Of a DNA stretch of 38,090 bases, positions 17,588 to 34,784 are shown piece by piece. This stretch comes from a virus. Every line of letters starts with the position of its first letter. Positions within the stretch are counted from its first letter, which is position 1. Location of the stretch: positions 1-38,090 of the IMG/VR virus record IMGVR_UViG_3300022200_000142; one strand, given 5' to 3'. The notes below the pieces were generated by a model. That model was not told where the DNA came from. It saw only the letters and a list, made by a program, of their open reading frames with translations, and did no database searches. Position numbers and translations under genes: made by a program.

Positions 17588-17601
17588 TCTATTTATTTTT
17601 G

Positions 17602-17672
17602 AGCCAAGTGGGGGACTCGAACCCCCATCCCGCTGTCAACACAGCGACTTTACCAATTACAGCTAACTTGGC
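17602..17672 (-). tRNA. tRNA gene, probably Asn (GUU), with a non-canonical anticodon loop
   Basis: On the minus strand the 7-bp acceptor GCCAAGT/ACTTGGC (17666-17672 with 17603-17609) and a strong T arm (GGGGG TTCGAGT CCCCC) are clear, with a D arm GCTGTAATTGGTAAAGT. The anticodon stem CGCTG/CAGCG leaves a 6-base loop TGTTGA; shifting the stem by one gives an 8-base loop. A normal 7-base loop cannot be drawn. GUU after a U is the best anticodon reading. No CCA is encoded. Confidence 0.75.
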
Positions 17673-26427: not shown

Positions 26428-26552
26428 TAGTCAGGACAGGATTCGAACCTGTATTATTCTAGCTACCAATATCATATAGGGGTACTTTAGTTTTCCCAAG
26501 AGATACCAGACCTCCGCCTCCTATACAGCGTCTACCATTCCGCCACCTGACT
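26428..26552 (-). tRNA. tRNA-like gene A (Leu-type body) with oversized anticodon region
   Basis: The 7-bp acceptor AGTCAGG/CCTGACT, D arm GCGGAATGGTAGACGC and T arm ACAGG TTCGAAT CCTGT are tRNA-Leu-like. Between D and T arms lie 75 nt, about 40 more than normal. TATAGG/CCTATA could form an anticodon stem but encloses about 40 nt. A short TATT/AATA stem could be the variable arm. No normal anticodon loop is visible. No CCA is encoded; A is the discriminator. Confidence 0.5.
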
Positions 26553-26554
26553 AA

Positions 26555-26640
26555 GTTGCTCGTCTTTCCAAGCTGTCACCACTTTGATAGCTCCTCCAAT
26601 GTTACTCTTCGGTTGTGTTCATAGATGGTTCACTATGAAT
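26555..26640 (-). other. Spacer between tRNA-like genes A and B
   Basis: 86 nt without an ORF. It contains a 7-bp hairpin TTCATAG/CTATGAA (26618-26624, 26633-26639) close to the 3' end of gene B, possibly a processing signal. Nothing else is recognised. Confidence 0.35.
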
Positions 26641-26642
26641 CG

Positions 26643-26744
26643 TAGTCAGGACAGGATTCGAACCTGTACGAGCATAGCTCCAATTTTTATGAGATTCGAA
26701 CTCCAGCTTACCCTTTAAGCGTCTACCAATTCCGCCACCTGACT
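26643..26744 (-). tRNA. tRNA-like gene B (Leu-type body) with oversized anticodon region
   Basis: It has the same acceptor and T arm as gene A and a D arm GCGGAATTGGTAGACGC. Between D and T arms are 51 nt. GAGC-TAT-GCTC forms a variable arm. The rest includes GAG-TTCGAAT-CTC, a second T-arm-like hairpin in place of a normal anticodon arm. No standard anticodon can be assigned. Confidence 0.5.
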
Positions 26745-26751
26745 ATTTTAT

Positions 26752-26934
26752 TTAGATATATTTACTAATATCTTCTTTAGCAATTTCAGTTATCGAATCA
26801 TCCATAATTTCTTTATTAGTATGCCCAATTACTATAACGGAATAATATTTACCATCCAATTCATATACCTGATATGCTGAATCTTTAACCCATTCACCTT
26901 CTCCGATGAATTTCGTTTTATCTAAATCTATCAT
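26752..26934 (-). CDS. Hypothetical protein, 60 aa
   Basis: Not recognised. A small acidic alpha/beta protein (KFIGEGEWVKDSAYQVYELDGKYYSVIVIGH..., then 'EIAKEDISKYI'). The frame is open to 27039, but the upstream part is translated tRNA-like sequence C (a familiar artefact reading MAKLVDARD...), so ATG 26934 is the real start. It is sandwiched between tRNA-like genes B and C. Confidence 0.6.
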   Translation of the reverse strand: MIDLDKTKFIGEGEWVKDSAYQVYELDGKYYSVIVIGHTNKEIMDDSITEIAKEDISKYI

Positions 26935-26948
26935 AATTATATTTTTAG

Positions 26949-27045
26949 TAGTCAGGACAGGACTCGAACCTGTAATGTGGTGATACCAGCTTATATCTTT
27001 ATCCACGAGAGTATCTCTTGCGTCTACCAATTTCGCCACCTGACT
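26949..27045 (-). tRNA. tRNA-like gene C (Leu-type body) with oversized anticodon region
   Basis: Acceptor AGTCAGG/CCTGACT, D arm GCGAAATTGGTAGACGC and T arm ACAGG TTCGAGT CCTGT. Between D and T arms are 46 nt, about 14 too many. AGAG-ATA-CTCT and GTGG...CCAC can pair, but no 5-bp stem with a 7-nt loop can be drawn. It is first in the presumed transcript, downstream of a TACCTTTG box. Confidence 0.5.
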
Positions 27046-34599: not shown

Positions 34600-34672
34600 T
34601 ATTAGTTTAAATGGTTTGAGCGGAGCGAGGGAGGCAACTCCCCCGACCTCGGCTTTCACGAGGTAGTCCCTA
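34600..34672 (-). promoter_or_regulatory. Two GC-rich hairpins in a leader
   Basis: Minus strand: ACCTCG-TGAAAGC-CGAGGT, then GGGAG-TTGC-CTCCC. Between them runs GTCGGGGGAGTTGCC (34633-34648 region), also found with one extra T beside the tRNA at 17670-17685 after a similar hairpin loop. No U-run follows, so it is a leader element or folded RNA rather than a terminator. Confidence 0.5.
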
Positions 34673-34676
34673 GCAC

Positions 34677-34784
34677 CTAGATTAAGGTTATGCAGTAGAT
34701 AACGTAAGTAACAAAGCACACAAGTGCTGTGTAAGGAAATGCAACTTCACCAAGGAAGTCAACTAATTTGATTAAGTTTTTCAT
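34677..34784 (-). CDS. Tiny membrane protein, 35 aa
   Basis: A 35-residue frame from ATG 34784: 'MKNLIKLVDFLGEVAFPY' then one membrane helix (TALVCFVTYVIYCITLI). Its leader 'AATAAAACCAAATCGA' nearly equals that of the 75-aa gene at 35761, and the conserved 42-bp block lies just upstream. Both support real expression. Function unknown. Confidence 0.6.
   Translation of the reverse strand: MKNLIKLVDFLGEVAFPYTALVCFVTYVIYCITLI

Follow-up and report, generated by a model that had tools for sequence, protein, structure and literature searches.

What does a phage make when it encodes genes with a sound tRNA body and an anticodon region too large for an anticodon arm? The window analysed here, a stretch of 38,090 nucleotides of viral DNA, holds three such genes on its minus strand. 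Judged by its genes, the contig is Crassvirales-like, as it encodes a crAss muzzle protein and the best matches of its DNA polymerase are gut crAss-like phages. The original prediction offered three candidates: tRNAs from which a short insert is removed, tRNA mimics, and decoys for anticodon nucleases. Our results come nearest to the mimic and support neither of the others. We read the genes, with a probability of roughly one half, as stable non-coding RNAs in which a tRNA-Leu-like chassis carries a payload domain that likely binds a target. The anatomy itself, a tRNA frame that lacks an anticodon arm and holds a structured payload, is highly probable; an effector role, in which payloads bind specific host or defence molecules, is a tentative proposal.

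Genes C (26949..27045), B (26643..26744) and A (26428..26552) have the same tRNA-Leu-like frame, read directly from the sequence, with 5′ ends at 27045, 26744 and 26552 and A73 at 26949, 26643 and 26428, respectively. In each, the acceptor AGTCAGG/CCTGACT pairs at 7 of 7 positions, the D arm is of tRNA-Leu type (TGGCG[A/G]AAT(T)GGTAGACGC), and the T arm (ACAGG-TTCGA[A/G]T-CCTGT) pairs at 5 of 5 positions. This confirms the normal bodies and oversized anticodon regions that had been predicted, including D-to-T intervals of exactly 75 nt (A), 51 nt (B) and 46 nt (C). ARAGORN reports none of the three genes, and the Rfam tRNA model RF00005 (gathering cut-off 29 bits) accepts them all, with 39.6 bits for C, 38.1 bits for B and 38.7 bits for A. 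An anticodon arm with a 5-bp stem, a 7-nt loop and U33 is found in 0 of the 3, again as predicted. Elsewhere in the window, a minus-strand tRNA (17601-17672) combines perfect acceptor and T stems with a 6-nt anticodon loop (CGCTG-TGTTGA-CAGCG) and is unassignable by ARAGORN, and a Twister-sister ribozyme lies at 34607-34681 on the same strand (Rfam 35.9 bits; gathering score 34).

The interval of each gene is occupied differently. The 46-nt payload of gene C (26974..27019, minus strand) forms a well-supported H-type pseudoknot in which GATACT..GGTATC crosses GTGG..CCAC, the 3′ strand of the latter stopping 3 nt before the T stem; this helix pair was matched by 0 of 30 shuffles. In the 51-nt payload of gene B (26668..26718, minus strand), GAGC-UAU-GCUC makes a short hairpin at the tRNA-Leu variable-arm position, ending 2 nt before the T stem, and the remainder contains no anticodon arm. 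The second T-arm-like hairpin previously noted in this gene (GGAG-TTCGAAT-CTCA) is present with just 3 consecutive base pairs, GAGC-UAU-GCUC being the better element. For the 75-nt payload of gene A (26453..26527, minus strand), the predicted fold puts a branched arm closed by GUAUAGG/CCCUAUAU where the anticodon arm would be; support for this fold is weak because its minimum free energy has a z of only −0.57, and a pseudoknot in gene A is not well supported. Payloads A, B and C have no detectable relatives within the collected copies (238 distinct inserts), so that for them the support extends no further than the frame and the overall architecture. Between genes B and A lies a spacer RNA element of about 90 nt (26553..26642, minus strand), nearly identical to an element in another locus (L188) and ending in the hairpin GCUUG-GAAAGA-CGAGC. 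Its motif GACAGC..GAAAGAC occurs 25 times across loci, mostly immediately ahead of tRNA-framed genes.

The comparison of homologous loci that had been proposed showed the same frame in viral contigs far beyond chance. A 26-mer across the acceptor and D arm occurs in at least 120 IMG/VR stretches, as does a 25-mer with a D loop one base shorter (again at least 120), with a few contigs common to the two sets. Among 84,980 bacterial and archaeal genomes the 26-mer was found on 3 contigs, and the frame family looks phage-specific. One of these copies is in a Chitinophagaceae MAG; the two other matches come from MAGs bearing the labels Neisseriaceae and Peregrinibacteria, and may be phage contigs that were binned wrongly. 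The hosts are probably Bacteroidota, on the indirect evidence of the Chitinophagaceae copy, of one carrier's terminase, which shares 68% identity with an Olleya phage terminase, and of spacers ahead of start codons that are A-rich and have no Shine-Dalgarno sequence. Our collection comprises 213 loci with up to 4 copies each, 277 copies in all, among which 238 different inserts occur; the family counts are lower bounds from exact-match scans biased to the AGTCAGG frame and from contigs that are fragments. The inserts measure 20-161 nt (median 58), and outside recurring families they are about as dissimilar to one another as shuffled sequence. Cultured phages and plasmids gave no match to the full-length Leu frame, their matches being halves of ordinary tRNA-Leu or attP-like sites, for example beside the S-TIP37 integrase. 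We found no description of tRNA-framed RNAs with variable inserts in the open-access literature. The same shell, carrying hundreds of inserts in at least 200 other phage fragments, therefore looks like an undescribed phage RNA class and not like broken or spliced tRNAs.

Across this family the tRNA core is kept and the anticodon arm is not. U48, the nucleotide preceding the T stem, and A73 are each retained in 240 of 267 copies, and A14-A15 and the GG of the D loop are likewise kept. A canonical arm (5 bp, 7 nt, U33) is seen in 1% of 220 distinct family inserts, the same as in shuffles (1%), and in 87% of ordinary Leu tRNAs of the same loci (n = 30 inserts). What is enriched instead is a helix at the tRNA-Leu variable-arm position, its 3′ strand stopping exactly 2 nt short of the T stem (z = 10 and 14.8; z = 8.6 against dinucleotide shuffles of 143 dereplicated inserts). 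Where this anchored helix is strong, its 5′ strand lies far upstream in 50 of 62 inserts, and in those 50 the best additional helix exceeded shuffles most when it crossed the anchored one (z = 3.9), followed by helices nested upstream (2.7) and nested inside (1.8); an earlier set of 79 inserts gave 7.5, 3.7 and 1.6, respectively. For most inserts, it is these aggregate statistics that argue for a crossing helix. A pseudoknot score without an anchor has a mean z of just −0.47 over all inserts, the signal emerging once the T stem serves as anchor for the helix. As a separate observation, two tRNAs with the acceptor TGTAAGG (L054 7500, minus strand; L120 4295, plus strand) have a normal-looking GTC anticodon arm, G73 and an enlarged variable arm.

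Three recurrent payload families, here termed F1, F2 and F3, provide evidence at the level of individual base pairs. Patterns taken from the payload alone recovered F1 in 50, F2 in 18 and F3 in 30 viral stretches, and nearly all copies continue into a T arm and 3′ acceptor strand inside a pairing tRNA frame, a few having odd or truncated 5′ sides. The same payloads recur with other acceptors (loci L330, L339, L364 and L390); there are many unrelated payload families, and one family can occupy different frames. In F1 (18 sequences), 98.4% of cells are paired and 10 pairs show two-sided changes, as against 2.4 in shuffles, including A-U to G-C in the crossing helix and A-U to G-C in the anchored helix, with further examples in the acceptor, D stem and T stem. 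F2 (7 sequences) and F3 (9 sequences) are both 100% paired, with 7 and 9 two-sided-change pairs (shuffles: 2.4 and 1.9), the anchored helix of F2 varying as U-A/G-C/A-U and A-U/U-A/C-G. Two-sided changes in the anchored helix are common to all three families, the acceptor and T stems covarying as well; the crossing helix is invariant in F2 and F3, and its covariation comes from F1 alone. An Rfam search with F1 and F3 matched the tRNA frame and gave no known class for the payload. The sequences thus have a frame under pairing selection and, in the anticodon arm's place, a folded domain with its 3′ helix resting against the variable-arm position.

No neighbouring protein gene is conserved, the best reaching at most 17 of 274 loci. 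In the window, the genes adjoin a T4 Rnl1-like RNA ligase (PF09511; 25440..26387, minus strand), a neighbour and not a conserved partner. As a partner it was rejected: of 50 carrier contigs just 7 have the ligase, and the genes most closely related to it, in 80 other loci, have no such RNAs beside them. Of these loci, 6 of 80 passed a scan for odd tRNAs, some of the six being joined ordinary tRNAs. We also rejected a cis-regulatory position, as the tRNA-framed RNAs are placed relative to genes like ordinary tRNAs, and antisense pairing to the own locus, for which the longest match (5.3 nt, versus 4.4 nt for other loci) was unconvincing.

A frame under strong pairing selection, with its Leu-type elements kept and the anticodon arm gone in nearly all copies, would also be expected of decoys or sinks for host or defence factors that recognise the tRNA body, such as its acceptor/CCA end, its elbow, LeuRS or EF-Tu, the insert merely blocking decoding. 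We consider this unlikely, and such decoys would have no need for covarying payload families or for payloads common to different frames. The anticodon-nuclease decoys suggested by the original prediction are unlikely for another reason, as the anticodon loop, which these nucleases cut, is missing.

In Y RNAs, a domain that binds Ro60 is coupled to a tRNA-like module, and related phages appear to encode such molecules. The cultured phage crAss001 has a TROVE/Ro60 gene and, about 270 nt downstream of it, an unannotated tRNA frame whose insert measures 95 nt (L407, from 46596 to about 46454 on the minus strand). The insert bears the motif GTTCC...GGTGTAG...GTTACTTC; such a motif-bearing frame is also found in PhiCrAssBcn1 and cr106_1, and unannotated counterparts sit beside TROVE in crAss001 relatives (L414 2500 and L415 2573, both plus strand). 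Y-like arrays (GTTCCCC...GTAG...TACTTC, then a tRNA T arm) also stand beside TROVE genes in phages of Caulobacter, Brevundimonas, Xanthomonas and Microcystis (L416, L417, L418 and L419). We read these TROVE-linked RNAs as Y RNAs. Phage TROVE proteins are noted in PMC7824862, which for cells mentions a tRNA-like partner. That the Leu-framed RNAs are themselves YrlA-like partners of a phage Ro60/TROVE protein is very unlikely, because the TTACTTC-type motif, derived from the TROVE-linked RNAs, occurs in 0 of 238 Leu-framed payloads. TROVE genes do occur in 5 of 50 carrier contigs versus 0 of 39 control contigs, an enrichment that is suggestive only; the 38-kb contig, possibly a fragment, has no TROVE gene, and the window has no match to YrlA (RF02553). 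The crAss001 case shows a tRNA frame being used in related phages as the carrier of an apparently protein-binding RNA. Among other crAss-like phages, the gut phage cr4_1 (L403 25681, plus strand) encodes a further tRNA-framed RNA whose D arm differs and whose interval spans 75 nt; a faecal phage relative (L405) shares this frame and interval, its acceptor and T stems having changed in a compensatory manner. That stretch of cr4_1 also contains three hatchet ribozymes, RAGATH-7, RAGATH-9 and a group I intron.

Some tRNA-framed genes are placed as processing signals might be: 23% sit 10-40 nt upstream of an ATG, versus 7% of random positions, as if RNase P and RNase Z cut polycistronic phage mRNAs at them ("tRNA punctuation") and the insert were irrelevant. 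Ordinary tRNAs in the same loci are placed similarly (19%) and the covariation of payloads would go unexplained, leaving this account only a slim chance. We give slightly less credence to two further accounts. One is that these are pseudo-tRNA genes, decaying or chimeric, within phage tRNA arrays, the anticodon region bearing the scars of recombination; copies do often stand among ordinary tRNAs, and their inserts are hypervariable. Decay, however, would not produce stems that pair perfectly and show compensatory changes, keep U48, A73 and the anchored helix, or yield covarying payload families in 18-50 contigs, which bears out the earlier argument against simple decay. A tRNA body with a pseudoknot at the anticodon place would suit RNAs directed to the ribosome, the pseudoknot acting in the decoding site in a way comparable in principle to tmRNA or IGR IRES pseudoknots. 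The payloads differ in size (20-161 nt) and in fold, the G3-U70 pair is missing, and there is no element common to all of them, as the decoding site would require.

Precursors with short introns, whose removal would restore a decoding tRNA-Leu, are extremely unlikely despite the tRNA-Leu-like body and the adjoining ligase gene: the remaining anticodon and variable arms should then be conserved around the insert, yet the whole interval varies, its 5′ anticodon strand is unanchored (z ~2), intervals of just 20-33 nt exist, and for a group I intron the window has no Rfam match down to E 0.5 and the inserts are far too short.

The reading that we favour is a tRNA-Leu-like chassis with a payload. 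Host RNase P and RNase Z would excise the chassis, made up of acceptor, D arm, T arm, U48 and A73, from phage transcripts, after which it would receive a 3′ CCA and be shielded from decay. As the anticodon is not used by bacterial LeuRS and the retained positions are of Leu type, the chassis could possibly be leucylated. The place of the anticodon arm is taken by an independently folded RNA domain, often a pseudoknot, with its 3′ helix at the variable-arm position beside the T stem, and each payload most likely binds a target of its own. So many fast-diverging versions hint at targets in conflict with the host, such as defence factors, a suggestion we hold with some reserve; counter-defence or host takeover as the role of the payload is a guess. 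It is conceivable, if doubtful, that phages of Bacteroidota, and perhaps others, carry evolving repertoires of tRNA-scaffolded RNA effectors, in which a single conserved tRNA-Leu-like shell, processed by the host, presents many unrelated pseudoknotted domains, each directed at a different host or defence molecule, and shells swap payloads. As tRNA finders drop or mislabel such genes, hundreds of phage RNAs are left unread. The TROVE-adjacent RNA of crAss001 makes the general idea testable now.

Among known systems, tRNA-Leu (RF00005, type II) is closest in body: acceptor, D arm, T arm, A14-A15, U48 and A73 are alike, scores lie above the gathering cut-off, and the family helix ends 2 nt before the T stem as the Leu variable arm does. 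In contrast to tRNA-Leu, the family has no anticodon arm and carries a payload of 20-161 nt that is mostly unrelated between copies and often pseudoknotted. Like Y RNA and YrlA, it links a tRNA-like module to a functional RNA domain that is separate from it, and related phages have Y-like tRNA-framed RNAs adjoining TROVE genes; unlike them, the Leu-framed RNAs lack the Y motif and have a complete tRNA body closed by its own 5′ and 3′ ends, and the window contig, possibly a fragment, holds no TROVE gene. tmRNA likewise has tRNA-like ends and pseudoknots in the place of the anticodon arm. The window genes, however, have no Rfam tmRNA match and their pair 3-70 is U-A, and Leu-framed RNAs have an intact D arm, are far shorter and exist in many unrelated versions. 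In the engineered tRNA scaffold, an aptamer stands in place of the anticodon arm and the tRNA body serves as a stability shell for foreign RNA, an arrangement like the one proposed here, except that the Leu-framed RNAs are natural, evolving and phage-borne. If they are stable and their payloads target-specific, they would be the natural counterpart of that laboratory device and a new RNA route by which phages act on their hosts.
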